This document shows positions 14,972 to 37,184 of a DNA stretch of 64,000 bases, in pieces. Numbering within the stretch: the first letter of the stretch is position 1; each line of letters opens with the position of its first letter. This DNA is from Paraglaciecola psychrophila 170 (GTDB lineage Bacteria; Pseudomonadota; Gammaproteobacteria; Enterobacterales; Alteromonadaceae), in contig NC_020514.1 in NCBI RefSeq assembly GCF_000347635.1, positions 4,154,001 through 4,218,000 of the forward strand, given 5' to 3'. A model generated the notes under the pieces. That model did no database searches. It was given only the letters and a program-made list of their open reading frames with translations, and was not told the DNA's origin. The translations under genes were made by a program, and so were the position numbers.

Positions 14972-16053
14972 TTAACCATCTACATAGCGCCGCTTGACAC
15001 GGGGAGAAACTCTACACAATAACTCATAAGAAATGGTCGAAGCACATTCGGCCACTTCTTCTACCGGCAGGTGTTCACCCCACAACTCTACCCTGTCATT
15101 GACCTTAACCTGTGCCAAGTCTGTTACGTCAAACGTTAACATATCCATCGAAACGCGACCTACTAGGGAGATTCTTTGATGCTGCAGCCAAGCTGGGGTG
15201 CCTACACGGGCATGGCGCGGGTAACCATCGGCATAACCTATGGCCACCGTAGCAATGGTCGTTTTCGTTGCGCGACCCAACTTTGTCCGTAACCTACACT
15301 CTCACCTTTTTGTAGACTGCGCAGCGCAATAATCGGCGCTGTCAAAGTCATCACAGGTTTCAACTTGAGCTGAGTATTATTTGCTGGTTGTGCACAGCCA
15401 TATAGTGCGATACCTAAACGATTCCAGCTACCATGCGACATAGGCCACTGTGATATACCGGCAGAGTTGGCCAAACTAAACACTAAACCGTGGGACACAG
15501 CCAACGCTTCAAGTTTTTGAGTCTGCTGTATATTGAACACATTATGTTGTTCATCGGCACAGGCTAAGTGACTGCATAACACGCTACCGTAAATAAGTAA
15601 GTCGGCAAACTCTCTCAATACTGAATTAATTTCAGCTAATCCAAAGCCTAAGCGGTGCATGCCAGTATCCACTTTTATCCATACCTTTGGCCGCTGTGAA
15701 GGTGCTAAAAAACGCAGCCACTCAAAATGTTCGCTGCGATGCAACATAACCCAAAAGTCTAGTTCAAACGCCAACGCCATTTCAGCCTCGTTCAACACAC
15801 CTTCAAGTAATAAAATCGGTTGCAGAATACCGTGTTCACGTAAGTGTATGGCTTCATCTATAAAAGCAACTGCAAATCCTTCAGCCTCATCCGACAATGC
15901 CTGTGCAATCGCGATTGCACCATGCCCATAAGCATCCGCTTTGATCACGGCCAAGGTTTTGCTGTTACCTGCTAAGGCTGACATCTGTCGAAAATTATCA
16001 ATTACTGCAGACACATTAATTTCGGCATAAGTAGGCCTTCCCAACACGTTCAT
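14972..16053 (-). pseudogene. alr: alanine racemase, single-base frameshift
   Basis: The N-terminal part (from ATG 16053, AAGG eight bases upstream) includes the PLP-lysine motif KADAYGHG, DTGMHRLGFG and SVGYGQSWVAQRK. The C-terminal part continues one frame over with TIATVAIGYADGYPRHA and VGRVSMDM. Adding one A to the minus-strand AAAA (bases 15262-15265) restores a normal racemase of about 360 residues. The enzyme interconverts L- and D-alanine. Placed at the edge of the peptidoglycan locus, it would feed D-alanine from stem peptides to L-alanine catabolism. A sequencing indel is more likely than a true pseudogene. Confidence 0.85.
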
Positions 16054-16235
16054 CCTTATGACCTTAGTTATCAATGTTATGGACTAAAAATATATCCCAT
16101 AGCACTCAGTACATTTACACCATTGAATAGATAAGCAAATAATATTCATCAACAGTCTGACACTATTTTTACGCATAAATGAAATTGCAGAAACAATCAT
16201 AAATCAATTATTATTTCTTATATACAAAATTTTAC

Positions 16236-16248
16236 GAATAATATATTC
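16236..16248. promoter_or_regulatory. putative operator GAATAATATATTC, copy 1
   Basis: The 13-mer GAATAATATATTC is identical to the copy at 26265-26277 and is the exact reverse complement of the copy at 37292-37304. It lies in the alr/murQ divergent region. Candidate operator for the RpiR-type regulator encoded at 18722; this link is inference. Confidence 0.5.
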
Positions 16249-16418
16249 TTTATTAAATCCAATGTTAAACCTTGAATTTATCTTTTGTGCTAGAGTGTTG
16301 ATCTGAATTGAACAGACTGTTTTTTTACCTGTTTGTGATTGTAATTGTACTTTAATTAGTACTTATTTTTTTACTTGGGAGTAGTTTGAATTGAGCGTCC
16401 GATAACACAAAATCAATT

Positions 16419-16469
16419 AATAATCTGTTATTAATCTGTTATTAATCTGTTATTAATCAGTATTTAATC
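16419..16469. repeat. 11-base tandem repeat upstream of murQ
   Basis: The unit TAATCTGTTAT occurs three times in tandem with a degenerate fourth, about 90 bases before the murQ start. An 11-base period keeps successive copies near one helical face, as expected for co-operative protein binding, but slippage alone could also produce it. Confidence 0.65.
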
Positions 16470-16554
16470 GGCCTAATTTTGGTGAGCAAAAGTACCATAT
16501 ACGTATCAAACACATAAGATGTGTCCAGCAAAGTGATAAGAGTAATAAATAAAT

Positions 16555-17484
16555 ATGAATAGTAATCCACTTTTAAGTGAGCTTAATACTATCTTGTCGG
16601 AATCGCGAAACCCCGACACCTTAAACATTGATTTATTGTCAACTGATGCCATTCTGCAAAAAATTAACGAAGAAGATCAGAAAGTGGCACTTGCCATAAA
16701 ACCGGCACTAAAAAATATAGGAATAGCGGTAGATACCATTGTTGAGGCCATTAAAAACAAAGGCCGTTTAATTTATTTCGGCGCGGGTACCAGTGGTCGT
16801 TTGGGTATTTTAGATGCAGTAGAATGTGTTCCCACTTTTAGTATCGAAAAAGATATTGTGATTGGTATTATCGCGGGGGGCGAAAAAGCTATAAAAGTTG
16901 CGGTAGAAGGTGCCGAAGACGACCAAGAAGCCGCCATAGAAGATTTAAAAGCAATTAACTTCAATGCCAAAGATGTATTGGTTGGCATTGCTGCCAGTGG
17001 TCGCACACCTTACGTCCTTTCAGGCTTAAAATATGCTCAACAGATTGGCGCCAAATCAGTTGCAGTAAGTTGTAATCCTAACTCAGCCATTGGCAAAGCT
17101 GCTGATGTGGATATTTGTGCTGCTGTTGGGCCAGAAATTCTGACAGGCTCTACGCGTATGAAATCAGGCACAGCACAAAAATTGATCCTTAATATGCTAA
17201 GCACAGCCAGTATGATCAAAATAGGTAAAACCTATCAAAATCTAATGGTAGATGTGCATGCCAGCAATAAAAAGCTATATGCCAGAGCACTGTTAATTGT
17301 CATGCAGGCAACTGATTGTGATGAAAAAATTGCCACTGATGCATTGCTGGCTGCGGGAAACGAAGCCAAGGTCGCGATTATGATGATACTAACGGATGTA
17401 AAGGCAACGGATGCAATAACTTTTCTGAAACAGAATGATGGTTTTTTACGTGCCGCTGTAGAGTCCAAAGGTGCTGTAACTTGA
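16555..17484 (+). CDS. murQ: N-acetylmuramic acid 6-phosphate etherase
   Basis: MurQ cleaves the lactyl ether of MurNAc-6-phosphate to give GlcNAc-6-phosphate and D-lactate in the cytoplasm. The 309-residue protein (E. coli about 298) has the SIS domain with FGAGTSGRLGILDAVE near residue 80, a second conserved glutamate in VEGAEDDQEA, and TGSTRMKSGTAQKLIL with MVDVHASNKKL in the C-terminal half. The two glutamates correspond to the proposed catalytic pair. Its stop overlaps the TTG start of the next gene (TTGA), so the two are co-translated. It is the pathway-defining gene of this locus. Confidence 0.95.
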   Translation: MNSNPLLSELNTILSESRNPDTLNIDLLSTDAILQKINEEDQKVALAIKPALKNIGIAVDTIVEAIKNKGRLIYFGAGTSGRLGILDAVECVPTFSIEKDIVIGIIAGGEKAIKVAVEGAEDDQEAAIEDLKAINFNAKDVLVGIAASGRTPYVLSGLKYAQQIGAKSVAVSCNPNSAIGKAADVDICAAVGPEILTGSTRMKSGTAQKLILNMLSTASMIKIGKTYQNLMVDVHASNKKLYARALLIVMQATDCDEKIATDALLAAGNEAKVAIMMILTDVKATDAITFLKQNDGFLRAAVESKGAVT

Positions 17485-18662
17485 ATCTTAGGCGCCGTGT
17501 CAGAGTATGCGGTTTAATCCTGTTAATGTGTACTTTAGGTGGATGTATTTCGAAGCCCCCTGCTAGCTCAATTCAGATAGGAGCAAATCAAATTGAACGT
17601 TACCTGCCGTTATTAAAAAACAAACGTGTGGCGTTAGTCGTTAATCAAACCTCGCGGGTTGCTAACTTACATCTAGTCGACTTTCTGTTATCAAGACAGA
17701 TTAATGTGGTGCGTATTTTTGCCCCAGAACATGGTTTCCGTGGAGACCATGATGCTGGCGCCCATGTCAGTGATGATATCGACAGTAAAACCGGGATTCA
17801 GATCACCTCGATATACGGTAAAAACAAGAAGCCGTCAAAAGACATGATGAGTCAAGTGGATATCGTCATTTTTGATATTCAGGATGTCGGTGTACGTTTT
17901 TATACTTATATTAGTTCTATGCATTACATGATGGAAGCTGCCGCACAGTCGTCGACTCAATTTATGGTACTCGACAGACCCAATCCTAATGGCGGGTTTA
18001 CTGATGGCCCTATTCTGGACACTGCTTATCAATCGTTTGTGGGCATGCACCCTATTCCAGTGTTACACGGTATGACCGTCGCCGAAATTGCCCTTATGAT
18101 TAAAGGTGAGCAATGGATAACAGACGCAGATAAACTAACCCTCGTCACCATTGCCAACACCCATTATCGCCGGGATATGCTCTATGATTTACCTGTTGCT
18201 CCCAGCCCTAACTTACCGAATAGCCAGTCTGTGCAACTGTACCCTTCGTTGTGTTTTTTTGAAGCCACACCGATCAGCGTGGGCCGTGGCACAGACTTCC
18301 CATTTCAGGTAATCGGTCACAACATTGTGCCTTTAGGAGATTTTAGTTTTAGCCCCGAGTCTATGCCTGGCGCAGCATTACGCCCAAAATTAGAAGAGCA
18401 GGTTTTGTTAGGCGTCGATTTACGACACAGTTCACAGCAAGGCTTAGATTTACAGATGTTTGTTAAAGCTTACCAGCAATTTACTGCGTCTGGCCTTAAC
18501 TTCTTTGAGCGTCCCGACTTTATGGACAAATTAGCTGGCAGCAACCAATTAAGGTTGGCGATTCAGCAAGGGCAAAGTGCTCAGCAGATAAAACAAAGCT
18601 GGCAGCCGGGCATACAAGCCTTCAAACAGCTACGTAAACCCTATCTGCTCTATCCAGAGTAA
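17481..18662 (+). CDS. namZ: NamZ-like exo-beta-N-acetylmuramidase lipoprotein (DUF1343)
   Basis: This 393-residue DUF1343 protein resembles B. subtilis YbbC (NamZ), which removes terminal non-reducing MurNAc from peptidoglycan fragments. The N-terminus ends in the lipobox LGGC, so it should be a lipoprotein. Conserved blocks include APEHGFRGDHDAGAHV, DIQDVGVRFYTY and VLDRPNPNGG. The start is the TTG at 17481, overlapping the murQ stop. With NagZ it would trim glycan chains sugar by sugar outside the cytoplasm, and its product MurNAc enters the kinase-MurQ route. In Bacillus the same gene lies beside nagZ, amiE, murR and murQ. Confidence 0.9.
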   Translation: MNLRRRVRVCGLILLMCTLGGCISKPPASSIQIGANQIERYLPLLKNKRVALVVNQTSRVANLHLVDFLLSRQINVVRIFAPEHGFRGDHDAGAHVSDDIDSKTGIQITSIYGKNKKPSKDMMSQVDIVIFDIQDVGVRFYTYISSMHYMMEAAAQSSTQFMVLDRPNPNGGFTDGPILDTAYQSFVGMHPIPVLHGMTVAEIALMIKGEQWITDADKLTLVTIANTHYRRDMLYDLPVAPSPNLPNSQSVQLYPSLCFFEATPISVGRGTDFPFQVIGHNIVPLGDFSFSPESMPGAALRPKLEEQVLLGVDLRHSSQQGLDLQMFVKAYQQFTASGLNFFERPDFMDKLAGSNQLRLAIQQGQSAQQIKQSWQPGIQAFKQLRKPYLLYPE

Positions 18663-18721: not shown

Positions 18722-19570
18722 CTACGCCAGACGTCTAAAGTCACTCACCACTGCATTGGTCTTTTCAAGGATTTGACGTCCTTGACGTGATGACTGAGTG
18801 ATTGCAATAAACAAAATATCAATGATAAATTCTTGGGCTGTTCTGGCCAGAATAGATGACAAACGAGCTGATTCATCATCTGCCACCGAGTAGAGTTTCA
18901 CATCGGCCATATCAGAAATGGGTGTGCTGCCATATCGCGTCACAGAAATTATTTTGGATTTATTGCGTTTCGCCTCAGATACGACATTAATCATTTCTTT
19001 AGTATTGCCTGATTCACTGATAGCAAACACTAAGTCATTTTCACCTAAGGTAGCAGCAAACGCCAGTTGTGCGTGGGTATCAACTTCTTCGATAGCCATC
19101 ATGCCTAACTTTTGCAACTTATAAGAAAAGTCTTTACCTACTAATGCTGAACCACCTAGGCCACAAATCAAAATGCGTTTCGACGACTTAAGAAATTCAA
19201 CCGCCTCAATAAATGCTTTTTCATCGTTCAACGTCTGTGTCTCATTCAACACAGACACCTTGCTACTCAGTAATTTTTCAGACATCTGAGCGAAGCTGTC
19301 ATTAATCGTAATTTTACCGTGCAAGTTACTGTTAGTACTAGAATTATTTAATGCATCAATAATGCCCATTTTGAAGGCTGGATAGCCTTTATAGCCTAAT
19401 TTTTGAGAAAACTTAACCACACTGGATTGGCTAACACCGACCACATTGGCCAATTCTTGTGAAGACAACTCTCGAATAGCATTAGATGAGTCCAATGCAA
19501 ATTTTGCTAGTTTAAGTTCACTAATCGACAACGAGTCCTTAAGCGCTTTGATTTTTGTAAATGTTGACAT
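18722..19570 (-). CDS. RpiR/MurR-like transcriptional regulator
   Basis: An RpiR-type HTH (residues about 1-77; LSSQELANVVGVSQSSVVKFSQKLGY) is followed by a SIS sugar-phosphate-binding domain (ILICGLGGSALVGKDF; VFAISESGNTKEMINV). MurR of E. coli and Bacillus has this architecture and senses MurNAc-6-phosphate. Lying convergent to murQ-namZ, it is the obvious candidate regulator of the locus. ATG 19570 is preferred over GTG 19576, though both are possible. Confidence 0.88.
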   Translation of the reverse strand: MSTFTKIKALKDSLSISELKLAKFALDSSNAIRELSSQELANVVGVSQSSVVKFSQKLGYKGYPAFKMGIIDALNNSSTNSNLHGKITINDSFAQMSEKLLSSKVSVLNETQTLNDEKAFIEAVEFLKSSKRILICGLGGSALVGKDFSYKLQKLGMMAIEEVDTHAQLAFAATLGENDLVFAISESGNTKEMINVVSEAKRNKSKIISVTRYGSTPISDMADVKLYSVADDESARLSSILARTAQEFIIDILFIAITQSSRQGRQILEKTNAVVSDFRRLA

Positions 19571-19778
19571 TGTCACTCGTAAATATTTTATTTATAAATT
19601 AAGAATAATTGTAACCCAAAGACTCTTAGTTAATTAACATATTTTATAAAAACGTAAAGCAATACAGGCATTTAAAGCAAAGTATAAAAAATTATTCTAA
19701 ATTAATATTTTATTCACACTTTTATTTAGTGCTACTTTGTACTGACCACCTGTTAAAAAGCCTTAAGCAAAATGTGGC

Positions 19779-20981
19779 TCATACTTTCCAGAAAATGTGT
19801 TTACGATACATCACAAACATAACCAGATAAGACAGTATTAAAAAGCTAACAGCATAAGCTAAAGATGCATTGAGATCGCCCAGCCAAGGTCTGTAAAAAT
19901 GCGAATATAACCACGCTTTTACACTGACCTCACCTATATGCACCATGATCACTAACCGTCCAACCACACCGGCAAACATAAAAAAGGCAATACTGTTAGC
20001 GCCAAATACAACAAAAGGGGCCGCCCACAATCGCCACTGTTTGATATCCAACACATACATCAAACCGGCTAATATTAATGCGGCATATCCAGAGGTAAGC
20101 AACACATAACTAGAGGTCCACAATGCTTTATTAATGGGTAACCAATGAGCCCACATTTGCCCCAACAACAATGCAACCACCCCACAAATGGCCAGCCATT
20201 TGGCTTTATGACGCATAGAATGATGGCTAAACGACAACCACTGCCCTGCCAATACCCCGCTTAAACCACTAGCAATCGCCGGCAATGTACTTAAGACGCC
20301 TTCAGGATCGAACGCAAATGGCTGGGCGCTGGAATAATAGAGATGGGTTTTAGCAAATAAGTAGTTGTCCAACCAAGCACTCAAGTTATTAGCATATTCT
20401 AATAAGCCCACGTATTGATTGCCTAGGTCATCGTGATAAGGAATAAATGCCATTGCCAGCCAATAGGCAACCAAAATAGCGAGCATACAAATTACCAGCT
20501 GCAGGCGCGACAAAAATAGCCATAACAAGACACAAGCCATGTATACCAGTGCGATACGTTGCAACACGCCCATAAAACGCATTTGCATCAGGCGCTGTGT
20601 AAACCAGTCATAATCGGCAGCACTAAAATTGTAATAAAACAGTGCTAAAAAACAGCCCAATAGCAGTAGCTTAAACATACGCAGCAGAGCGTGGTGGATG
20701 ATATGCCCATGACCTAGCCCTTGCTCTTTTTGACGCTGCCCCGACAGCGAAATGGACACCCCAACAATAAAGATAAAAAAGGGGAAAATTAAGTCGGTTA
20801 GGGTCCAGCCGTGCCACTTTGCATGGGCTAAAGGCGAATAAATATATTGCCAGCTGCCAGGATTATTCACTAAGATCATAGCGGTAATCGTCATGCCTCT
20901 AAATACATCTAAAGCCAGCAGCCGATTGGCTGGCACATGCTGATAGATAGACTGACAATGCGCTTTAAGCGCTGACATCAT
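19779..20981 (-). CDS. nagX: NagX-like membrane protein (DUF5009/HGSNAT family)
   Basis: This polytopic protein of about 400 residues opens with LLALDVFRGMTITAMILVNN and has WTLTDLIFPFFIFIVGVSIS, both typical of the heparan-alpha-glucosaminide N-acetyltransferase-like family. In Shewanella and Xanthomonas its homologue NagX belongs to GlcNAc-utilisation clusters and is proposed, not proven, to be an inner-membrane sugar transporter or acetyltransferase. It follows nagZ by 12 bases, so the two are an operon. AAGGTGG precedes the ATG at 20981; a GTG at 20987 is also in frame. It is the only transporter-like inner-membrane protein in the locus. Confidence 0.85.
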   Translation of the reverse strand: MMSALKAHCQSIYQHVPANRLLALDVFRGMTITAMILVNNPGSWQYIYSPLAHAKWHGWTLTDLIFPFFIFIVGVSISLSGQRQKEQGLGHGHIIHHALLRMFKLLLLGCFLALFYYNFSAADYDWFTQRLMQMRFMGVLQRIALVYMACVLLWLFLSRLQLVICMLAILVAYWLAMAFIPYHDDLGNQYVGLLEYANNLSAWLDNYLFAKTHLYYSSAQPFAFDPEGVLSTLPAIASGLSGVLAGQWLSFSHHSMRHKAKWLAICGVVALLLGQMWAHWLPINKALWTSSYVLLTSGYAALILAGLMYVLDIKQWRLWAAPFVVFGANSIAFFMFAGVVGRLVIMVHIGEVSVKAWLYSHFYRPWLGDLNASLAYAVSFLILSYLVMFVMYRKHIFWKV

Positions 20982-20993
20982 AAACACACCACC

Positions 20994-22865
20994 TTATTGA
21001 ACCGTAACAGGCAAACTTCCTTGGGCTTGAATACGACCACTGATCACGTCTGCTAAAGCATTAAAAATCGGTCCGTCGTACTGCGTAATAGAACGACCAG
21101 AGTCGTCCATATACTCAGACTTGGTCAGCCGATAAGCAAAACTGGCTAAAATGGCATCGGCATAGGGTGCAAACAAACGGCTGTTGTATGGTGTACGCAA
21201 ACTGATAAACAGCGTCTTTTTACCTAGCTGTTGCGCCGCTTCTAACATCCTTAACTGTTGGCTAATTTGCTGCTGTTTAGTACTACGTTCACGCCTGTGC
21301 TGGATATCGTCCATGCCACCTAGCTCTGCTAAGCTTTGATCTGGGGTGATATCCGCTGTGATAACCATGTCAACTTGATCCAAGGCTAACAAGTTGACGT
21401 CAGCATCGACACTAGCCACGCTGTTGCACTTAATATTTAAGGTCGGTAAACGATTTTTTAGCGCAAGGGTTAATCCCATACACTTAGTGGTATCTGGCAT
21501 CACTAACAGCAGATTGGTCACACTATTATCAAGGGGTAACACACCGCTGTTTTTAATCATAACGATGGCGCTGTTGGCCAATTGCTGTTCAACCATTTTG
21601 TGAGCTAGCGAGTCCAAGGTTGCCTGTGCACTAACAATAGCCTGGTCAATCGGTAATGTTTGTGGTTTCGACAGTTGATAGCTTGCTTTGAGTGCAGCAA
21701 TACGCTGTGCCGAAACGTCAATCTCTTTGCGGTTTAAGCGCCCTTGCTGCACCGCGTTAGTCACATCACTGATAAGCTGTTTTAAGTTAGCAATATCTGA
21801 TGGACGCCTAATAGTTATTGGCATCAACGCAATATCTGCTCCGGCTGAAAAGGTTTGAACAACCGCCTCAGTCTGGTCAAAGTAATGAGCAATGCCCGCC
21901 ATGTTTAATGCATCAGTAACTATAAGGCCTTTAAATTCCATTTTATCTCTGAGTAAATCAGTCAGGATCTTGCGGGACATAGTGGCCGGTAAAATCACAG
22001 TGTTGCCGTCTTTAGCCATAAATTCAGTGTTATCTAATTGCGGATACTGAATATGTGCCGTCATGATCATGCCCGGTGCATCACGGTCTATGGCATAACT
22101 AAAGGGCTTTAAATCAACGGCTTCAATTTGTTGTAGATCGTGATCGACTCTGGGCAAGCCGGTATGACTATCGACACTGGTGTCACCGTGCCCCGGAAAA
22201 TGTTTTAGAGTAGCGATCATGCCCTGATGTTGCATCGCCGCCATTTGCGCCGTGCCCAGTTGCGCCACTATATTCGCATCTTCACCGTATGAGCGCACAT
22301 TGATCACCGGATTTAACGGATTAACATTTACATCTACAGTAGGTGCAAAATTAACATTAAAACCCAGTGACATTAATTCTTTGGCCATAATTTCGCCACT
22401 TTCACGGGCAAACTTGTCTCCGTGCTTAGCAAAGGTGGCACCAATCGCCATATTGCCCGCAAATGACGTGCCCAAGTTTTGCGGCAAACGCACCACCCGA
22501 CCACCTTCCTGATCGATAGCGATAAACAGCGGTAGATGCCCTGCTCTCTTTGCAGCTTGCTGCAAGGCATAATTTAAGGTCAGTATTTGTCGGGTATTTT
22601 GTAGGTTTTCAGCAAACAAAATGACACCACCGATACCTGTATCACTAATCATATCTGCTAATGGTTGAGGTAACTTAGTTACAGGTGTTCGGCACGTTTT
22701 TTCGAGATCAGCATCATCACAAAAATACCGTAAATCAAGCATTAATTTTTGAGCGACGATTGGGTTTAATATTGGATCTACTTTTGTTTTTACGGCACAA
22801 GATGCACTCAATAACATAACGCAGAAGGCGGAAAATTTAATCACTGTATACGGTACTTTAATCAA
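20994..22865 (-). CDS. nagZ: NagZ-like GH3 beta-N-acetylglucosaminidase lipoprotein
   Basis: A glycoside hydrolase family 3 protein of 623 residues. FIAIDQEGGRVVRLPQN, the NagZ catalytic histidine loop KHFPGHGDTSVDSHTG and the nucleophile aspartate region VTDALNMAG are all present. A C-terminal second domain makes it like two-domain Bacillus NagZ rather than the short cytoplasmic E. coli form. The lipobox SASC predicts an envelope-anchored enzyme, again as in Bacillus. It removes terminal GlcNAc from wall fragments and would alternate with NamZ. The start is taken as the TTG at 22865; no clear ribosome site is visible. It is first in a nagZ-nagX unit. Confidence 0.92.
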   Translation of the reverse strand: MIKVPYTVIKFSAFCVMLLSASCAVKTKVDPILNPIVAQKLMLDLRYFCDDADLEKTCRTPVTKLPQPLADMISDTGIGGVILFAENLQNTRQILTLNYALQQAAKRAGHLPLFIAIDQEGGRVVRLPQNLGTSFAGNMAIGATFAKHGDKFARESGEIMAKELMSLGFNVNFAPTVDVNVNPLNPVINVRSYGEDANIVAQLGTAQMAAMQHQGMIATLKHFPGHGDTSVDSHTGLPRVDHDLQQIEAVDLKPFSYAIDRDAPGMIMTAHIQYPQLDNTEFMAKDGNTVILPATMSRKILTDLLRDKMEFKGLIVTDALNMAGIAHYFDQTEAVVQTFSAGADIALMPITIRRPSDIANLKQLISDVTNAVQQGRLNRKEIDVSAQRIAALKASYQLSKPQTLPIDQAIVSAQATLDSLAHKMVEQQLANSAIVMIKNSGVLPLDNSVTNLLLVMPDTTKCMGLTLALKNRLPTLNIKCNSVASVDADVNLLALDQVDMVITADITPDQSLAELGGMDDIQHRRERSTKQQQISQQLRMLEAAQQLGKKTLFISLRTPYNSRLFAPYADAILASFAYRLTKSEYMDDSGRSITQYDGPIFNALADVISGRIQAQGSLPVTVQ

Positions 22866-22978
22866 GATATTTAACTACTTATTGTAAATTTATGCATTAG
22901 ATCAGATAAGAATGTAGCAGGCTCACCTAAAAATAAATTATTTAATATTCTAAAGTTAATATGGAAAATTAATATGAA

Positions 22979-26059: not shown

Positions 26060-26093
26060 GTGTACCACCTGTTATTGTAAATTATTGATATAG

Positions 26094-26264: not shown

Positions 26265-26277
26265 GAATAATATATTC
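26265..26277. promoter_or_regulatory. putative operator GAATAATATATTC, copy 2
   Basis: Identical 13-mer to that at 16236-16248, here in the divergent region between the Oar-like receptor and the amidase-fusion gene. Confidence 0.5.
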
Positions 26278-26390: not shown

Positions 26391-26440
26391 CATATATTTC
26401 CTAAAATAATAATTATTTATTCTAAAAGGTGGAGTTTGTC

Positions 26441-28933: not shown

Positions 28934-28943
28934 GAACACCTTA

Positions 28944-30572
28944 ATGCAGAGTTTATCACCCACGTTTTTAGTCTGCGGCCTGCTATTAATTGGATTAACT
29001 GGGTTCACTAAAGCTGAGTCTGCCACTTTGAATGAGAAAAAAGTACACCAAATTATGCAAATCTTGCAAATACCAGGTGCTGCTATTGGCATAGTCAAAA
29101 ACGGTAAAGTCATAACGGCCCGTGGCTTTGGGGTAAAAAAAATAGGGTCTAAAGAACCTATCGATAGCAATAGTATTTTTAAGATAGCCTCAAATACTAA
29201 GGCTTTTACGGCGGCGGCTTTAGCCATTTTAGTGGATGAAGGTAAAATAAGCTGGGACGGTAAAGTACAACGTTACTTAACTGATTTTAAACTTCATGAC
29301 CCTTGGGTCAGTGAACAGTTTAACCTCATCGACTTACTCACTCATCGCAGTGGTTTGGGGTTGGGAGCAGGCGACTTAATGTTGTGGCCCGAGCCTTCTA
29401 GTTTCACACGCCAAGAAGTGTTGCATAATTTACGCTATCTAAAACCCACTGGGGAATTTCGGGCTGACTATGCCTACGACAACTTGCTGTATATTGTGGC
29501 TGGCGAAATTATTCCAGCCGTTACTGACAACAGTTGGGAAACCTTTGTTGAGCAACGGATCATGCAGCCCTTAGGTATGACACATTGTTTTGCGGGTAAC
29601 GTCAGTGCACAAAGGCAAGCCGACATAGCCACACCTCACGGTATTGTAAATGGCAAACTTCAAACTATCATACGACCAATCGCCCCCGACAAACCCAGTG
29701 TGTCAGGACCGGCTGGGGGCATACAATGCAGCCTTAACGACATGCTGACATGGGTGAAAGTACAGCTTAATCAAGGAAAAACAGCTGCCGGTAAATCACT
29801 ATTTTCTGAAACGCAGCACCGCATGATGTGGACACCGCAGACTATTATGCCCGTGTCTTGGCGCAGTAAACGTTTCGACAATACCCACCTTAGCGCCTAC
29901 GGACTAGGCTGGCGTATTAATGATATGGATGGTTATTTGCAAGTTCACCACAGCGGCAGCTTAGCTGGCATGTATTCTTTTGTGAGTTTATTTCCAGAAT
30001 TAGACTTAGGTTTTGTGGTACTGACTAATCAGCAGTCGAGTGCCGCTCGTAGTGCTTTGATGTACACCGCCATGAAACCCTACTTAGGCGATACCAGCAG
30101 CGATTGGCTAGCTAAATTTAGCCCTCCACCCAAAAATCACTCTGCCACAAAACCATCAGGTACAACCGATAACGCTGATAACAGCCGTCCGGACAATACT
30201 ATAGCAAGCATAAATAATACCGACTTCAATGCTTATATAGGTACTTATGATGATCCATGGTTGGGACATTTTATTATTGAACAGACTCCTCATAGTTCCC
30301 CCGATAACAAATCAGCAGGGTTACAAATCCATTCATCACGGGTGGAAAAATTGGTAGGCACATTATATCTGCAAAACAGCAAAGATAACTTATTGATACG
30401 CTGGCACGACCGCAGTCTAGAAGCCGACGCGATTATTCATTTAAAACGCGATAATCAAGGCATTGTGATTGGCATGACACTCGCCCCTGAATCAAAAGAC
30501 ATCGATTTTAGTTATGATTTTCAGGATTTAGATTTTACTAAACTCACCTCGCCCAAAACGCCAGCCCACTGA
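28944..30572 (+). CDS. secreted serine hydrolase (beta-lactamase/D-aminopeptidase-like)
   Basis: This 542-residue protein has a signal peptide (LVCGLLLIGLTGFTKAES) and a class-C-type serine hydrolase domain: SNTK (SxxK) near residue 84, YDN (YxN) and HHSGSL. The C-terminal portion after about residue 400 is a DUF3471-like beta domain joined by a serine/threonine/asparagine-rich linker. Family members include PBP4*-type peptidases and D-aminopeptidases acting on wall peptides. It starts 10 bases after the amidase-fusion gene with AGGA as ribosome site, so they form an operon. The precise bond cleaved is not evident. Confidence 0.85.
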   Translation: MQSLSPTFLVCGLLLIGLTGFTKAESATLNEKKVHQIMQILQIPGAAIGIVKNGKVITARGFGVKKIGSKEPIDSNSIFKIASNTKAFTAAALAILVDEGKISWDGKVQRYLTDFKLHDPWVSEQFNLIDLLTHRSGLGLGAGDLMLWPEPSSFTRQEVLHNLRYLKPTGEFRADYAYDNLLYIVAGEIIPAVTDNSWETFVEQRIMQPLGMTHCFAGNVSAQRQADIATPHGIVNGKLQTIIRPIAPDKPSVSGPAGGIQCSLNDMLTWVKVQLNQGKTAAGKSLFSETQHRMMWTPQTIMPVSWRSKRFDNTHLSAYGLGWRINDMDGYLQVHHSGSLAGMYSFVSLFPELDLGFVVLTNQQSSAARSALMYTAMKPYLGDTSSDWLAKFSPPPKNHSATKPSGTTDNADNSRPDNTIASINNTDFNAYIGTYDDPWLGHFIIEQTPHSSPDNKSAGLQIHSSRVEKLVGTLYLQNSKDNLLIRWHDRSLEADAIIHLKRDNQGIVIGMTLAPESKDIDFSYDFQDLDFTKLTSPKTPAH

Positions 30573-31112
30573 AAAGTAGGCTAACAGTAGTGAACTTGAT
30601 GGTGAGCATGCAACTTATCCCGTGATGCATAATTGATTGGGTCAAACTCTCTATGACAGGTTCAATGTGACCCATGCTTACATCGGGCTCCTAGGGCCTA
30701 TTTAAACTCAATCAGGTTACTTGTGCCCTAATTCAACGACTCATCACCAACACTTTCTTCTTATTTTAAACTTGTGGAATTCACCCTCATAACATTCAAA
30801 ATATTCCAAACTCCACTAAATTTCAGAATGATTTATTGAAAGGTTATTTGATTTTTGATTATTCTATCCTTTACGCTGAAGGACTATAGGTAACACTTGT
30901 AATTTATAAGCTAACCTACTAATAATTATAAGTATAGTGGGGTTTATTTGAGTGAGCATCATTACCCAGTTATGGTGTATTAAATTACAAAACAAGCAAA
31001 TCTAGTTTATAAAACAATCTATTTTTTGGCTTTCAACAAATATTGACTTGTTGAAATAATTATTCTCATTATAATCTAAATTTTGGAATATAATATTAAA
31101 GGAGGTCGTGTG
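30573..31112. other. intergenic region before the kinase operon
   Basis: About 540 AT-rich bases without a convincing gene. It should hold the promoter of the kinase-peptidase-epimerase operon; an operator-like GAAATAATTATTC lies at 31053-31065, about 50 bases before the kinase start. Confidence 0.4.
31053..31065. promoter_or_regulatory. putative operator GAAATAATTATTC, copy 4
   Basis: Near-palindrome of the same class as the sites at 16236, 26265, 26379 and 37292, upstream of the sugar-kinase gene. Confidence 0.4.
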
Positions 31113-32000
31113 GTGAATAGCAGTAAACCTCTTTATATTGGTATTGATGGAGGTGGCACTAAGTGCAGCGCTAAGTTATTCAACGCCAAAAAAGAGGTGA
31201 TAGGCCACGGTATTAGTGGACCAGCCAATGCAGCAAGAGACTTAGCACAGACCTTAGACTCTATATTAAAATCTGTGCACCTAGCACTAATAGATGCTCA
31301 ACTTAGCATTAAGACTATCCCTAAACTAAAAGTGGCTGCTGGTTTAGCCGGTGCAACTATACCTAGCGTAAAAGCACAACTACTTGCATGGCAGCACCCT
31401 TTTGAGTGTTTTACAGCCGACAGTGACTTAATTACTAGCAGTTATGGCGCTCATGAAGGACGCGATGGGGCATTGCTGATTGTAGGTACGGGTTCATCTG
31501 CAGCCCGTTTTGAGTCAGGTGTTCTAACCCAGTTTGGTGGACATGGATTTACCTTTGGTGATAAAGGAAGTGGAGCATGGTTGGGCCGTTCAGCCATTGC
31601 TTCTACTCTTGAAGCCTTAGATGGTGTGACGGCTATTTCGGCCTTGCACGATAGAATTTTGACTCGACTATCAGTATCGTCAAGCGCTGGCCTTGTACAA
31701 AAGATGATCTTGGCTACCCCAACTCAATTTGCTACTTTAGCCCCTGATGTTGTTAGTTTAGCTAAGCAAGAGGATATTAATGCAATGACTTTAGTTGCTG
31801 AAGCGGCAGCATATCTAGATAAACTGTGTATGCGTACCTTGCAAAACACAGAGTTATCTTTAGTGTTGATGGGAGGCCTCGCACCCATTTACAAGCCTTG
31901 GTTTAGCCCCATCCTTCGCGCACGCATAGTCGAAGCTAAGTCGGGCCCTGAAAGGGGAGCACTGCATTTGCTGCATTCTCACTTACCTCTGATTTTCTAA
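31113..32000 (+). CDS. BadF/BadG-type sugar kinase (MurK/NagK-like)
   Basis: This 295-residue ASKHA-fold kinase has the phosphate-binding motif YIGIDGGGTKCSAKLF at the N-terminus, LIVGTGSSAARF, and FTFGDKGSGAWLGRSAIAS. The BadF family includes mammalian GlcNAc kinase and clostridial MurK, which phosphorylates MurNAc and GlcNAc. Here it would make the MurNAc-6-phosphate that MurQ needs, since the locus has no PTS and no AnmK. The GTG at 31113 is seven bases after GGAGG (31101-31105) and is preferred to upstream starts. Substrate is inferred from context. Confidence 0.85.
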   Translation: MNSSKPLYIGIDGGGTKCSAKLFNAKKEVIGHGISGPANAARDLAQTLDSILKSVHLALIDAQLSIKTIPKLKVAAGLAGATIPSVKAQLLAWQHPFECFTADSDLITSSYGAHEGRDGALLIVGTGSSAARFESGVLTQFGGHGFTFGDKGSGAWLGRSAIASTLEALDGVTAISALHDRILTRLSVSSSAGLVQKMILATPTQFATLAPDVVSLAKQEDINAMTLVAEAAAYLDKLCMRTLQNTELSLVLMGGLAPIYKPWFSPILRARIVEAKSGPERGALHLLHSHLPLIF

Positions 32001-32057: not shown

Positions 32058-33494
32058 ATGTTGAATATAACGAGAGTCCAAACTAGCCATTACCGTAAAA
32101 ACTATCGTCGCTTATCTCAGATAATCCTGTTTTTAGCTTACAGTACCTGCAGTAATTTGGCGTTTAGCAACAGCAATGTGCCAGATATTAGCAGCCACCA
32201 ATTAAACGCCCAGTATTGGCAGACTAAGCTAAAAAATAACGAGGTTATGTCGATGAAAAATCAAGACGTCGAAGCATTCAACCAACAACTATTCACAAGT
32301 AACCCATTCGTAGTCAACCCTTTAGCCAGCCCTACAAGTTTAGATAAAGCGGCCTTAATAGATAAAATACACAGCATCAGCTCCGTCCCAAGTAGTGCGC
32401 GTTTTTATGAGGATGGCGCCCAGCTAACGGAACAAAATTTTAAAGTCTATACCGACAATCTCAATATCCAAGGGGTCAAAGCCCATAACGAGGTTAAGTT
32501 TGGTTTAGTCACCCAACGCTCTTCACTGCGCACCTTTCCCACTTTAGACAGGGTATTTAACAAATCAATGGATTTTGATTTAGACCGTTTTCAAGAAACA
32601 GGCGTTTTTCCAAGTGAAGCGGTGGCCATATTACATAGCAGTGCCGACGGCAAATGGTTGCTGGTACAAAACTACAATTATTTGGCATGGGTGAGCCAAG
32701 ACGATATTGCCATAGGCACTAAGCAGCAAGTTCACACTTATTTAGATCATCAAGACTTTTTGTTGATCACGGGGGCTAAAGTACTCACCAGCTATGTGCC
32801 AAACGAACCTGAAATATCACAGGTACAGTTAGATATGGGCGTTAAACTCCCGCTTTTGAGCATTAATGAACAACATGGAGAACTCTACGGCCAAAGTACC
32901 GCCGGAAGCTATGAAGTAAAACTCCCAGTGCGCAACCTAGATGGTAGCCTAAGTATCAAAACGGCCTTAATCGGGCGTACCCAAGATGTGCACCAAGGTT
33001 ACCTCGAATACACTGCGCAAAACGTGATTGCACAAGCGTTTAAGTTTTTAGGCGAACGTTATGGCTGGGGTCATGATTACAATGGTCGAGACTGCACTGG
33101 ATTTGTAGGCGAAATTTATAAAACCTTTGGCATTTTGATGCCGCGTAATTCCGGGCAACAGGGTAAAGGCGAGTATGGTACTAACTTTAGGTTTGATAAA
33201 AACAGCGATAGCACCAGTAAATTAGCGTTCATTAAAAATATGCAAATAGGGGATCTTATCTATATTCCGGGTCATGTTATGCTGTACCTAGGTAAAGAAA
33301 ACAACCAACCTATAGTGATCCATGACGTCAAAGGTTTAGCCTACTGGACCCCTGAAGGTGAATATTATCAAGGCGTATTAAATGCAGTCTCAGTTACCCC
33401 TTTGATCACGTTGCATTTGAACGAAACGACGACTTATGTCGATAAAATTTACAATATTAAACGCCTCACGCTAAACAACATTGAAAGAGATTAA
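32058..33494 (+). CDS. NlpC/P60 peptidase with SH3 region (YkfC-like)
   Basis: The 478-residue exported protein has a hydrophobic signal ending near LAFSNS, central SH3-like segments (KFGLVTQRSSLRTFPTLD) and a C-terminal NlpC/P60 domain. Its catalytic cysteine lies in NGRDCTGFVGEIYKTFG, one histidine in PGHVMLYLG and another polar residue in VIHDVKG. Bacillus YkfC has the same plan and cuts the gamma-D-Glu-diamino acid bond in peptides with a free N-terminal L-Ala. Directly followed by an L-Ala-D/L-Glu epimerase, as in the Bacillus ykf operon, it probably releases L-Ala-D-Glu dipeptides. Confidence 0.88.
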   Translation: MLNITRVQTSHYRKNYRRLSQIILFLAYSTCSNLAFSNSNVPDISSHQLNAQYWQTKLKNNEVMSMKNQDVEAFNQQLFTSNPFVVNPLASPTSLDKAALIDKIHSISSVPSSARFYEDGAQLTEQNFKVYTDNLNIQGVKAHNEVKFGLVTQRSSLRTFPTLDRVFNKSMDFDLDRFQETGVFPSEAVAILHSSADGKWLLVQNYNYLAWVSQDDIAIGTKQQVHTYLDHQDFLLITGAKVLTSYVPNEPEISQVQLDMGVKLPLLSINEQHGELYGQSTAGSYEVKLPVRNLDGSLSIKTALIGRTQDVHQGYLEYTAQNVIAQAFKFLGERYGWGHDYNGRDCTGFVGEIYKTFGILMPRNSGQQGKGEYGTNFRFDKNSDSTSKLAFIKNMQIGDLIYIPGHVMLYLGKENNQPIVIHDVKGLAYWTPEGEYYQGVLNAVSVTPLITLHLNETTTYVDKIYNIKRLTLNNIERD

Positions 33495-33500
33495 GCCGCA

Positions 33501-34604
33501 ATGAAAATCACCGCCATCCGTTTTGCGAAGTTAGAGGTGCCATTAATTACTCCTTTTAAAACAGCCATGCGTACTGTGCAAAACATTACTGATCTTGTGG
33601 TGATAATTGAAACAGACAAGGGTGTATTGGGTTATGGCTCAGCACCTTCTACGCCTATTATCACCGGGGATACCCACGGCTCGATATGTTATGCCATTAA
33701 TAACGTGATTGGCCCCCACATCATCGGTATGGACATTGAAGATTTAAATGCTATTTGTCATAAAATCCAACATGCGATTGTGGCTAATAGCAGTGCTAAA
33801 GCGGCTCTCGAAATTGCTATTTACGACCTCTGGGCTAAACGTTTTGATGCACCACTGTATAAAATGCTTGGAGGCGGTAAACCCATCTTAAGTACTGACG
33901 TGACAATCAGTGTCGATCACATCGAAAAGATGCTGGCTGATGCTAATCTTGCTATTAGTCAGGGCTTTGAAATCCTTAAAATTAAAATCGGTACTGACAT
34001 CGAAAATGATATCGAACGAATATATTCAATTCATCAAGATGTGGCTAAGCGGGCCACGCTTAGGTTAGATGTTAATCAAGGTTGGACCGCTAAACAAACC
34101 GTTTACGCCATGCAAAAACTAGAAAACATAGGTGTTGAGCTTGAGCTGATTGAGCAACCGGTCAAAAGTAATGATATTAAAGGCCTGCGCTACATCAGCG
34201 AACGTATTACCACCCCCGTTATGGCTGATGAAAGTGCGTTTTCACCACTACAAGTTATTGACTTAATTCGCAGTGGTGCTGCTGACATTATCAATATTAA
34301 ATTAATGAAGTGTGCAGGTCTCAGTCAAGCGATTAAAATTGCCGACTTAGCCGAATTACATGATATTCCTTGCATGATAGGCTGCATGCTCGAAGGCAGT
34401 ATTGGCGTAGCTGCTGCAGCGCATTTAGCTGCAGCCAAAGCCTCTAGCATTTCTTTAATAGACTTGGATGGCCCAGCACTGGGTCAATATGATCCGGTTG
34501 TCGGGGGTGTAGATTTCAACTTATCTAACATAACATTAGGTCAAGGCGCTGGCCTTGGCATTGAGAGAATTAACGATTTACAGGAGCTAACTTGGCCATT
34601 TTAA
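33501..34604 (+). CDS. L-Ala-D/L-Glu dipeptide epimerase (YkfB/YcjG-like)
   Basis: An enolase-superfamily enzyme of 367 residues. The acid/base lysine lies in KIKIG near residue 164, metal ligands in LDVNQGW, IEQPV and MADES, and the second lysine in INIKLMKCAG. These match muconate-lactonizing-subgroup dipeptide epimerases that turn L-Ala-D-Glu into L-Ala-L-Glu so ordinary peptidases can finish it. It lies six bases after the NlpC/P60 gene, and its 3' end overlaps the next gene by 13 bases. Context makes the murein-peptide substrate likely. Confidence 0.9.
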   Translation: MKITAIRFAKLEVPLITPFKTAMRTVQNITDLVVIIETDKGVLGYGSAPSTPIITGDTHGSICYAINNVIGPHIIGMDIEDLNAICHKIQHAIVANSSAKAALEIAIYDLWAKRFDAPLYKMLGGGKPILSTDVTISVDHIEKMLADANLAISQGFEILKIKIGTDIENDIERIYSIHQDVAKRATLRLDVNQGWTAKQTVYAMQKLENIGVELELIEQPVKSNDIKGLRYISERITTPVMADESAFSPLQVIDLIRSGAADIINIKLMKCAGLSQAIKIADLAELHDIPCMIGCMLEGSIGVAAAAHLAAAKASSISLIDLDGPALGQYDPVVGGVDFNLSNITLGQGAGLGIERINDLQELTWPF

Positions 34605-35368
34605 ATTCACGTCACATCATCACGGGCGCACTCATACTATTAACGAGCTTACTCAGCTCTTGCGCCTCAAATTCTGACCCTGTTGAGCCTTTACTACAAC
34701 GTCTCGACACTCAACAACTGGTGGTGGTGGTATCAGATAACTGGGACGCAACAACGGCAACACTGCAAAAATTTGAGTGGGTAAATGCAAAATGGCAAGC
34801 AGTAGATCAGGCCTTCCCAGTCAATTTGGGCCGAACCGGACTAGCATGGGGCTTAGGATTACATCCTGCACAACAAGGGTATTACAAGATAGAAGGCGAC
34901 GGTAAAGCCACAGCTGGGATATTCAATTTAAGCAGCACGTTTGGCTATTTGCCCAAAGCCATTACCGACATGCCATATCAACCGATGTCGGCTAATCACT
35001 ACTGTATAGACGTTAACGGATCGCCATTGTACAACCAAATTGTTGATGAAAGCATCGTGGGCAATAATGCTGTAAAAGGCTCGACAGAACCGATGCGCCG
35101 CGATATTCACAATGGTGGCCAAACAATATATAAAAAAGGTATCTTGCTTGATCACAATCCAGCAAACCTTAGCGGTAAAGGCAGTTGTATCTTCTTACAT
35201 TTATGGTTTGGCCCAGATGTTCCCACCGCAGGCTGTACTTCTATGCAAGAACCTAAAATGGATGCACTGTTAGCTTGGTTGAACCCAGCCAAAAATCCAC
35301 GTTACTTGGCTTTGCCAAAAGATGAATATAAGAAAAAACAGCAACAATGGGGCTTGCCAGCTCTTTAA
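34592..35368 (+). CDS. YkuD-fold lipoprotein (L,D-transpeptidase-like)
   Basis: A 258-residue lipoprotein (lipobox LLSSC) with a YkuD-like active-site pattern: histidines in RRDIHNGGQ and CIFLHLW and the cysteine in PTAGCTSM. Such enzymes cross-link, trim or hydrolyse meso-DAP-containing stems. The TTG at 34592 has GGAG six bases upstream and lies inside the end of the epimerase gene, indicating tight coupling. In a scavenging operon an L,D-carboxypeptidase or endopeptidase role is more plausible than wall building, but the sequence does not decide it. Confidence 0.8.
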   Translation: MAILNSRHIITGALILLTSLLSSCASNSDPVEPLLQRLDTQQLVVVVSDNWDATTATLQKFEWVNAKWQAVDQAFPVNLGRTGLAWGLGLHPAQQGYYKIEGDGKATAGIFNLSSTFGYLPKAITDMPYQPMSANHYCIDVNGSPLYNQIVDESIVGNNAVKGSTEPMRRDIHNGGQTIYKKGILLDHNPANLSGKGSCIFLHLWFGPDVPTAGCTSMQEPKMDALLAWLNPAKNPRYLALPKDEYKKKQQQWGLPAL

Positions 35369-35426
35369 TAAGAACGTATTCAAAAGTCCATTTATAAGTG
35401 CTCAGCTGCGAACATTACATCCCAAT

Positions 35427-35455
35427 AACAGCCCCTTGGTGTAGGGGCTGTTTTA
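35427..35455 (+). terminator. Rho-independent terminator of the kinase-YkuD operon
   Basis: AACAGCCCC (35427-35435) pairs with GGGGCTGTT (35444-35452) across eight bases and is followed by TTAT. It lies between the convergent YkuD and dld genes. Confidence 0.9.
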
Positions 35456-35482
35456 TATCGGAGGCTGAAATATACCAATACA

Positions 35483-37184
35483 TTAATGTTGGCAACTACA
35501 ATTACGTTGGGTTTTGTCGGTTTTGCCAATACCAGGATTGAACGTATTGGTTGGGTCGAGAGTTAAATAAAATTCCTTTAGACTTTGTTCAGCCGCATAC
35601 AAATGCCCCACATTATGTTCGGCTGGGTATTTAACCCCTCGCTTATTTAGCAATTTAAGCATGCTGTTTTTGACTTTTTACAGGATCTGCGCCTTTTTTC
35701 AAAATGTAATCCTGATGAAAAACATGACAGAAAAAATGTCCATAGTAGAGCTTCATTTCAAGCTGGTCTTGCAAAGCTTCAGGCAGCGCTTCTAACCAAT
35801 CAATATCATCGCGTCTTAAGGCAATATCCAACGATAATAATTCGCCTACGTCTTTTTGATATAAAGTGTGATAGCGCATTGCGGCCCCCGCAGCGGCAAA
35901 ACGGTTTAACACCGCAGCGGCAGTTTCTTGGGTATCACATTCAAAAAAAGCCCCTTCTTGCTCAGTAAAAAATGTGGCTAGATGGGCTCTCGCTTCAGCA
36001 ATACCTTGCTCACTCATTTTCAAAATCAAATGATGATCGTATTTGGCACGATATTGCAAAATACGTGCAGGTAAATGCTGCGGGAAAAATCGACTGGCCG
36101 TTTGCATCACCCAATCACTAAGATGTGCAGACACAAAAGGTAAAGATTTGCAGATTGCATCGACTCGCGCTTTTAAGGCAAACAACTTAGGTAAACGGTC
36201 AGTACCTAAATGTTTTACACTCAAAAACGTGTCTTTTCCGTACTTGGCAGAAATATCAAAAATATCTTTGTGTAAGTATTCACCTACCTCAGGTAAATGT
36301 TCATATTGTTGTAAAATATCCCGTCTGAGACGGCCCAACACTAAGGGGTCATTAGTACCAATATAAAATGTCTGCTCTTGCTCGGCCACCGCAAACGTAT
36401 CGAGCCTAACGGCAAAAACAGCCAACTTACCTGCACAGCCACTGGCTTCAAATAAACGCCGGGGATCGGCGTTATAACGGCTAGGACTATTTTCATCTAC
36501 CTGACGTACACGCTGCTGATACTCTTTATCTGAGCACTGAGCATCGCTTGGCGTTAAGTCGTCTTTAGCAAAATTCCCGGTCATCAAGTTGCTTAATATC
36601 TCCTCAGGCGTCTCACCCAACTCAATACCTAAATGATTAACCAGTTGTAATTCACCCTGTTCATCAACCCTCGCAAACAACGCCATTTCAGTATAGGCAG
36701 GACCACGTTTCACTAACGCGCCGCCTGAATTATTGGCGATGCCACCCACCACCGACGCACCTAAACACGAAGAACCAATAACCGAATGAGGACTGCGCTT
36801 TATAGGCTTAAGTACCTTCTCTAAGCTGAACAAGGTCGCCCCAGGGAAACTCAACGCCTGCTGCCCTTGTTCAAGCAAATACACCTGATCCATCGCCAAC
36901 GTATTGATGATAACAATAGGCCGGTCATAGTCATCACCATTAGGCGTGGAGCCCTCGGTTAATCCAGTATTAGCGGCTTGCATTATAATAATAGCCTGGT
37001 GATTAACACACACTTGTAAAGCCTGATATAACAGCAGCAGAGTCTGCGGTTTGACTACAGCAAACGCAGCACCTCCCCCGGTGCGCCAGCCAAAGCGATA
37101 TCGTTGCGACTTTTTCTTATTTGTAATGATGTGATTTTGACCGACAACGTCTTGAAGTTGTTGCAGTAATTGCGGATGGTGCAT
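35483..37184 (-). pseudogene. dld: respiratory D-lactate dehydrogenase, single-base frameshift near the 3' end
   Basis: This FAD/quinone-dependent D-lactate dehydrogenase resembles E. coli Dld (571 aa). It has PQTLLLLYQALQVC, the FAD-binding PGATLFSLEKVLKPI and GSSCLGASVVGGIANNSGG, and the membrane-binding Dld domain. The main frame ends at 35655, but the next frame continues with KRGVKYPAEHNVGHLYAAE and DPTNTFNPGIGKT to a stop at 35483. Removing one base from the A5 run (bases 35675-35679) restores a protein of about 566 residues. It would oxidise the D-lactate released by MurQ to pyruvate and feed electrons to quinone. A read error is likely. Confidence 0.88.

Follow-up and report, generated by a model that had tools for sequence, protein, structure and literature searches.

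Gammaproteobacterial TonB-dependent carbohydrate utilization loci combine a dedicated receptor, exported hydrolases and a local regulator, and in Bacillus subtilis the ykfABCD operon is a murein-peptide operon. For N-acetylmuramic acid (MurNAc), excerpts of PMC5061867 describe the B. subtilis cluster murQ-murR-murP-amiE-nagZ-ybbC, which serves MurNAc recycling, and the Escherichia coli murR / murQ-murP-yfeW divergon, in which yfeW, the gene for PBP4B, is paired with murQ. Tannerella forsythia, a MurNAc auxotroph, takes up fragments via AmpG and MurNAc via MurT, both encoded by ampG-murTKQ (excerpts of PMC7670621 and PMC5388701). Here we describe a locus of Paraglaciecola psychrophila 170 in which a Bacillus-type MurNAc set, ykf-type enzymes and a TonB receptor are merged. 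It occupies 16.5-37.2 kb of the window, the 64,000-nucleotide stretch of contig NC_020514.1 (positions 4,154,001 to 4,218,000) that was analysed, and its set of wall-fragment genes was assigned by curated-model and Pfam scans. The enzymes are of known kinds and their arrangement is conserved and apparently co-regulated; the combination looks new, and we found no description of it in titles, abstract starts and passages of the literature, which is not proof of absence. Gene identities, conservation, linkage and a shared motif were established, and judging from sequence we put at about 0.8 the probability that the locus is catabolic and serves imported peptidoglycan fragments.

Gene content of the locus

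The gene families that an earlier note on this DNA had named between 14,972 and 37,184 were found there by family scans, the YkuD protein being weakly scored, and its proposal that Bacillus-type MurNAc and ykf sets are merged with an outer-membrane receptor was borne out by family scans, structure matches and synteny. The genes are:

14972..16074, minus strand: alr/dadX-like second alanine racemase in two frames, 15238-16074 and 14972-15280 (TIGR00492, 211.2 and 104.3 bits)
16555..17484, plus strand: murQ, MurNAc-6-phosphate etherase (NF009222, 438.7 bits, cut-off 255; TIGR00274, 399.9 bits, cut-off 302)
17481..18662, plus strand: namZ, exo-beta-N-acetylmuramidase (PF07075, NamZ_N, 255.5 bits; PF20732, NamZ_C)
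18722..19576, minus strand: murR, RpiR/MurR-type regulator (HTH_6 and SIS)
19779..20987, minus strand: nagX, HGSNAT-like membrane protein (NF046061, 193.9 bits, below the cut-off of 480)
20994..22865, minus strand: nagZ, two-domain GH3 of the B. subtilis YbbD type (PF00933, 296.8 bits)
23045..26068, minus strand: Oar-like TonB-dependent receptor with CarboxypepD_reg domain (PF13620), plug and barrel
26429..28933, plus strand: Amidase_2 - PG_binding_1 - PBP4B/AmiE-like fusion lipoprotein (PF01510 and PF00144 over cut-off, PF01471 just under)
28944..30572, plus strand: second PF00144 serine hydrolase with a DUF3471-like tail (family scans; N-terminus signal-peptide-like by eye)
31083..32000, plus strand: BadF-family amino-sugar kinase, a NagK-side paralogue (PF01869; nearest model NF046058, NagK, 277.7 bits, cut-off 370)
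32058..33494, plus strand: YkfC-like gamma-D-Glu-diamino-acid endopeptidase (SH3_6 and NLPC_P60)
33501..34604, plus strand: YkfB-like L-Ala-D/L-Glu epimerase (MR_MLE; NF041118, 256.4 bits, below the cut-off of 500)
34592..35368, plus strand: YkuD-like lipoprotein, candidate L,D-carboxypeptidase (PF03734, E=0.005, 17.9 bits, cut-off 23.4; lipobox-like LSSC)
35507..37184, minus strand: dld, D-lactate dehydrogenase, main frame 35655-37184 (Dld NF008387, 811.1 bits, cut-off 391)

Within the sugar module, MurQ was the sole one over cut-off in the genome, NamZ matched the solved NamZ-family structure 4jja_A with 375.7 bits, and the best solved match of NagZ was YbbD, 3bmx (318.9 bits). YbbD of B. 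subtilis is a lipoprotein; neither NagZ nor NamZ fits the strict lipobox pattern, and the NamZ N-terminus is lipoprotein-like by eye. The regulator scored below the equivalog cut-offs (MurR model NF012026, 160.3 against 408; best model NF008590, 235.4 against 355). The substrate of the kinase is the weakest enzymatic link of the pathway. The true start of this protein is probably downstream of the called TTG, and it has a Ser before the catalytic Asp and a GGHG loop common to both NagK-type paralogues of the genome; at the MurNAc-selectivity positions given in excerpts of PMC10465942, that is, residues leaving room for the lactyl ether, it leaves MurNAc and/or N-acetylglucosamine (GlcNAc) as candidate substrates. 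In two Rheinheimera loci (L131:5636-7516 and L135:5619-7499), a single open reading frame (ORF) of about 626 amino acids joins a BadF kinase to an SIS part resembling MurQ (L131 from a domain scan, L135 judged by equal length), which supports a linked kinase feeding MurQ.

Among the exported proteins, the "double amidase" and "two serine-hydrolase units" of the earlier note overlap, the second half of the fusion being one of those serine hydrolases. The fusion scored 500.8 bits against the PBP4B model (cut-off 385), carries a lipobox-like IVSC and falls with the AmiE/PBP4B-type serine enzymes as a putative amidase; H61, H195, D205 and S503 were invariant in seven aligned sequences. A homologue in L007:1501-3969 (G090) lacks the SxxK lysine and HTG of the window protein, which we take to be functional motifs of the serine-hydrolase half, and this half may therefore be inactive there. 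An order-level search of 197 genomes found a near full-length fusion in seven, this genome included, and a plasmid search found separate halves only: none of its 258 matching records covered 80% of the fusion in one place. An AlphaFold model of the receptor (predicted local distance difference test score, pLDDT, 77.5) had 6ofr as its best Foldseek match (E=2.1e-28, template modelling (TM) score 0.53/0.69, TonB-dependent transporters), and the modelled fold is the plug-in-barrel of that class. Pfam assigned no barrel to the window receptor and OMP_b-brl_4 to 4 of 26 aligned members. No full-length receptor paralogue was found in the genome, the best covering 344 residues at 31%, and no SusD-like family, hence no SusC-SusD pair, among the scanned locus ORFs.

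For the peptide module, the best solved match of the NlpC/P60 enzyme was 3m1u, a putative gamma-D-glutamyl-L-diamino acid endopeptidase (79.3 bits), and that of the epimerase was the B. subtilis Ala-Glu epimerase 1jpm (324.2 bits). In the YkuD-like protein, C215 and H203 were invariant in 13 aligned sequences; its model was of moderate confidence (pLDDT 71.9) and its best fold match, Campylobacter Pgp2, was weak (TM 0.37).

Conservation and shared predicted operators

Relative loci were collected by scanning named genomes with an alignment of seven fusions, and the best 80 of at least 539 confirmed places were retained; the anchor was the fusion or its amidase half, and the frequencies are valid for that sample only. 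Since clustering considered ORFs of at least 110 amino acids at 35% identity and 60% length, within flanks of at most 10 kb and the ends of contigs, counts out of 80 are lower bounds. The earlier note had made its reading depend on co-occurrence in related genomes, and the cluster does recur in Alteromonadales: at least three of 15 partner families were present in 59 of the 80 loci and none in four, one Halieaceae metagenome-assembled genome (MAG) having the amidase alone. The sources included Paraglaciecola, Neptunicella, Colwellia, Thalassotalea, Bowmanella, Lacimicrobium, Pseudoalteromonas, Alteromonas, Pseudidiomarina, Glaciecola and Microbulbifer, with subsets of the genes in Microbulbifer, Woeseiaceae MAGs and Robiginitomaculum MAGs. 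Counts per 80 were 62 for the fusion, 14 for the amidase half alone, 40 for murR, 33 for namZ, 31 for murQ, 30 each for nagZ and the receptor, 27 for the epimerase, 23 for nlpC, 18 for alr, 15 for the second serine hydrolase, 13 for ykuD, and 12 each for nagX and the kinase. Recurrent in relatives and not found in the window locus were an NhaC-like antiporter (35/80), an SSS sodium symporter (22/80), an M14 peptidase (20/80), a flavin adenine dinucleotide (FAD)-oxidase/Fe-S oxidoreductase (13/80) and a gamma-glutamyltransferase (12/80).

Linkage within these loci was often tight. The epimerase gene (ykfB) adjoined nlpC in all 20 loci with both, namZ adjoined murQ in 25 of 27, all six loci with nagX and nagZ had them side by side on one strand, and in 10 of 12 the second serine hydrolase adjoined the fusion. 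At most 800 bp separated the receptor from the fusion in 15 of 20 loci with both, and from a stand-alone amidase in 6 of 7. The SSS symporter adjoined murK in all eight loci with both and was next to murQ in 9 of 19; it is therefore the best candidate for a MurNAc permease. The symporter orthologue of this genome (69% identity) stands some 24 kb from murQ, about 8 kb ahead of the window start, together with anmK and a single-domain nagZ on one strand; no phosphotransferase system (PTS) protein, such as the MurP transporter, was seen among the scanned locus ORFs.

For the D-lactate oxidation and D-Ala racemization of the earlier note, dld and alr are present and both have broken frames. MurQ releases D-lactate. 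The window dld, the only PF09330 gene found in the genome, is broken near its C-terminus, with the remainder in another frame at about 35507-35707, and a Dld homologue stands beside the locus in 1 of the 80 relative loci, so its position is not conserved. The FAD-oxidase/Fe-S oxidoreductase, different from Dld, may oxidize D-lactate to judge from its domains, and D-lactate handling gets some independent support from relatives. A complete second alr elsewhere in the genome makes the locus alr an extra copy; a one-frame copy is present in L060, the locus of Paraglaciecola sp. MB-3u-78, which by its anchor protein (91%) is the closest named relative among the best 80 of at least 539. Outside the locus, a second dnaK (39,847 to 41,729) is likewise split in two frames, with an intact dnaK elsewhere in the genome and, in L060, a dnaK in one frame as far as the contig piece reaches. 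Sequencing error and true decay could each account for the breaks in alr, dld and dnaK and cannot be told apart. We did not hold the locus to be dead because of them, as the genes from murQ to ykuD are all open.

A shared palindromic motif stands before the predicted transcription units of the locus. The search proceeded from raw dyads through gap-based controls to a matrix built from 71 non-Paraglaciecola sites, with dyad counts in relatives pointing to AATANNNTATT. Among the 40 loci with murR, there were 42 sites in 120 gaps 5' of partner genes (1.3 in shuffles), 2 in 154 gaps 5' of other genes only (1.3) and 1 in 69 convergent gaps (0.2), and 30 of the 40 had at least one site 5' of a partner gene. 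In the 5.41 Mb genome, exact GAATANNNTATTC occurs in eight places, three of them inside the locus; four of the other five are within called ORFs and one precedes an aspartokinase-like ORF (name read from the N-terminus). The matrix gave seven window hits scoring at least 14. Six of them fall singly in the promoter gaps of the locus (alr/murQ, murR, nagZ, receptor/fusion, kinase and dld), and the seventh is at 4250. The own-genome control had three hits in 76,066 bases, all in pieces chosen for holding the motif, and pieces chosen otherwise (L154, L155 and L173; 46,001 bases) had no score of 12 or more. The predicted sites, to which no strand is assigned, are:

16236..16248: predicted operator GAATAATATATTC between alr and murQ, an exact GAATANNNTATTC copy (matrix 17.5)
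19581-19593 and 19703-19715: two predicted operators 5' of murR (matrix 13.6 and 14.4)
22931..22943: predicted operator 5' of nagZ (matrix 17.2)
26197-26209: weaker second site in the receptor/fusion divergent region (matrix 12.2)
26265..26277: predicted operator in the receptor/fusion divergent region, exact genomic motif (matrix 15.3)
31086..31098: predicted operator at the start of the kinase gene, within the called ORF (matrix 15.6)
37292..37304: predicted operator GAATATATTATTC 5' of dld, exact genomic motif (matrix 17.6), in a gap that is also 5' of a divergent ligase gene at 37661

The linked RpiR-type protein would be the one that binds these predicted operators. Chance clustering of the genes was rejected, the synteny test and the motif test both being against it.

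Proposed pathway and alternative explanations

In the pathway that we propose, in which substrates, receptor ligand, transport direction, peptide import, regulator-motif pairing and inducer are those that we infer, the TonB-dependent receptor would take soluble wall fragments through the outer membrane, and the peptides would be stripped and trimmed by the second serine hydrolase and by the fusion lipoprotein, which would pair a zinc amidase with a serine amidase/carboxypeptidase. NagX would use cytoplasmic acetyl-CoA to re-acetylate glucosamine ends where the wall is de-N-acetylated, and NagZ and NamZ would remove GlcNAc and MurNAc alternately from the non-reducing end. The sugars would pass to the cytoplasm, MurNAc probably via the distant sodium symporter, to be phosphorylated by the BadF kinase; MurQ would convert MurNAc-6-phosphate to GlcNAc-6-phosphate and D-lactate, the latter to be oxidized by Dld. 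Stem peptide and D-Ala would be processed by the YkuD lipoprotein, the NlpC/P60 endopeptidase, the epimerase and Alr. The regulator, acting on GAATANNNTATTC-like sites, would turn the set on, with a response to MurNAc-6-phosphate suggested by analogy with E. coli MurR.

Most of the locus hydrolases could equally act on the cell's own fragments, and with one MurQ over cut-off in the genome, MurNAc-6-phosphate derived from AnmK would also pass through it, so we considered whether the locus salvages periplasmic turnover products of its own wall, the receptor being an unrelated neighbour or an importer of something else. The AmpG/AnmK recycling pathway needs no NamZ, YbbD-type NagZ, NagX or TonB receptor. 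Moreover, the recycling genes anmK and single-domain nagZ stand together, with the symporter, elsewhere in the genome, and the locus is therefore not merely a recycling pathway; the closeness of the receptor to the fusion or amidase in relatives, and the motif-bearing divergent region common to receptor and fusion here, also speak against an unrelated neighbour, and we regard own-wall recycling as unlikely. A chitin or GlcNAc utilization locus with an incidental murQ would explain NagX and a NagK-type kinase, both typical of such loci in excerpts of PMC9007349. Against it stand NamZ, the amidases, NlpC/P60, the Ala-Glu epimerase and MurQ, which by established knowledge have no chitin substrate, and nag-type clusters are present in two other regions of the genome (NagP, NagB-II and two NagK-type kinases by model, other names by eye); this explanation is very improbable and was rejected.

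The role of NagX admits two answers, either of which is compatible with the catabolic reading, as it concerns one component only. Pfam gave no match for this protein, whose model match is the sole one in the genome, and its H55 aligns with the catalytic H297 of HGSNAT (alignment to 8vkj). In the window nagX begins 6 bases after nagZ, and it also follows nagZ in the relative G072 (L046). Re-acetylation by a glucosaminide N-acetyltransferase has been described for Clostridium acetobutylicum, whose enzyme is presumably not an HGSNAT-type membrane protein. That enzyme acts before glucosaminidase cleavage (Reith and Mayer 2011, as cited in excerpts of PMC4680927, whose own enzyme has a GNAT region fused to a fungal GH3). 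In excerpts of PMC9007349, Price and colleagues put forward a role for NagX as a glucosamine acetyltransferase in the membrane-spanning form, using the same histidine, and mention that NagX proteins are distantly related to MurT of T. forsythia. The retained histidine and the adjacency of nagX and nagZ in the six relative loci with both suggest re-N-acetylation before cleavage, and we think this role probable. The MurT relation could instead make NagX a MurNAc permease; no sugar permease other than NagX was seen among the scanned locus ORFs, and nagX adjoins the fusion, not nagZ, in 5 of 12 nagX loci. Against this stand the aligned histidine and the fact that it is the SSS symporter, not nagX, that adjoins murK or murQ, and a permease function seems doubtful.

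Several observations weigh against the catabolic reading or limit its reach. Overlapping relative loci of common descent served both to find the motif and to count it, in a sample anchored as described above. Among 40 loci without a detected murR, the 52 partner gaps still contained 9 sites, compared with 1 in the 155 other gaps. The eight genomic copies of GAATANNNTATTC compare with six for the reversed control pattern, so the motif is not rich genome-wide and only its concentration in the locus is telling. The six promoter-gap sites exceed the 0.13 expected from 300 first-order random versions of the gaps (maximum 3), in gaps chosen after earlier scans had shown hits and with the kinase gap extended 38 bases into the called ORF to include its site. 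The strongest matrix hit in the window, at 4250-4266, lies outside the locus, 5' of a siderophore-type TonB receptor (4580-6955). In a tree the locus kinase falls on the NagK side (outer split 100/100, inner forks weaker), apart from a clade made up of the murQ-linked kinases found in relatives. When 369 genomes of the class were searched with the receptor as anchor (E<=1e-80), this genome alone was recovered, perhaps from an even draw with few near relatives and few candidates scored, and the linkage of the receptor hence rests on the fusion-anchored loci. The frames of alr and dld are broken, and the L060 locus (1578-16338) is decaying: a DDE transposase ORF separates pieces of its nagZ, several of its genes are short, and nagX, kinase and dld had no match there; the trait is therefore dispensable. 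Finally, family scans found no dipeptide importer, dipeptidase, lysozyme, transglycosylase or M23 enzyme among the scanned locus ORFs, and the likely food is therefore soluble fragments and not whole sacculi. With these families missing from the scanned ORFs and the candidate sugar permease far from murQ, "near-complete" in the earlier note was too strong; its reading of wall-debris utilization is supported by synteny and the shared palindrome for fragments, with whole sacculi less likely.

Based on these data, we retain the catabolic reading and tentatively suggest something wider, which is possible but short of probable: that marine Gammaproteobacteria may practise dedicated peptidoglycan foraging with an Oar-like family of wall-fragment receptors, a single regulator acting through GAATANNNTATTC on every module, MurNAc import by a sodium symporter and a "re-acetylate then cut" use of NagX that would let NagZ cleave N-deacetylated walls, a bacterial counterpart of lysosomal HGSNAT followed by glucosaminidase. 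Peptidoglycan has been proposed as a significant deep-sea nutrient, and its marine use has been proposed from transcripts (excerpts of PMC11044484). No outer-membrane receptor for peptidoglycan was found in a literature search of titles, abstract starts and passages that left most subscription journals outside. The locus offers candidates for the receptor family, the permease and the regulator with its operator, together with a succession of enzyme steps, and all of these can be tested in culturable relatives such as Paraglaciecola, Pseudoalteromonas and Alteromonas; a peptidoglycan role for NagX and marker genes for wall-debris consumption in metagenomes would follow.

Two neighbouring regions were also recorded. 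Some 5-17 kb past the window end (L155:5084-16917) is a second amino-sugar locus, which could serve GlcNAc-1-phosphodiesters. It has NagP, NagB-II and NagK by model and a phosphodiester glycosidase (NAGPA); NagA, a TonB receptor, an ORF resembling a phosphatase and a regulator resembling ROK were named by eye. At 2001-4055 of the window is a tetratricopeptide repeat (TPR)-sulfotransferase protein (Sulfotransfer_3).

Comparison with known systems

Of the papers closest in subject, excerpts of PMC9537276 treat chitin oxidation in Pseudoalteromonas, where MurNAc was included in growth tests and a different cluster has an RpiR-type repressor, and excerpts of PMC13046382, PMC2996990 and PMC5507952 contain nothing like the window locus. 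The clusters of B. subtilis and E. coli, as given in excerpts of PMC5061867, share the same logic as the locus, and we counted this for the catabolic reading. 

With the B. subtilis MurNAc cluster the locus shares MurQ, an RpiR/MurR-type regulator, an AmiE/PBP4B-type serine enzyme, a two-domain NagZ and NamZ. It differs in that no MurP was found among the scanned ORFs and in the addition of a TonB receptor, the Amidase_2 fusion, NagX, an ATP-type kinase, the peptide enzymes and Dld. In making this comparison we take ybbC to be namZ. The E. coli divergon likewise has MurQ, a MurR-type regulator and a PBP4B homologue, but takes up MurNAc by a PTS, has PBP4B unfused, and is without NamZ, an outer-membrane receptor or a peptide module. 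As in ykfABCD, a YkfB-type epimerase adjoins an NlpC/P60 endopeptidase; unlike that operon, the locus joins them to a sugar pathway, and neither a YkfA-type carboxypeptidase nor a Dpp transporter was seen in the ORFs scanned. The T. forsythia operon resembles the locus in a NagX/MurT relative, a BadF kinase, MurQ and the use of exogenous fragments, but imports these by AmpG, and "TonB" occurs in neither PMC5388701 nor PMC7670621. Overall, the receptor, exported hydrolases and regulator give the locus the plan of a TonB-dependent carbohydrate locus whose predicted substrate class is peptidoglycan, with amidases, peptidases and the handling of D-lactate and D-Ala included.

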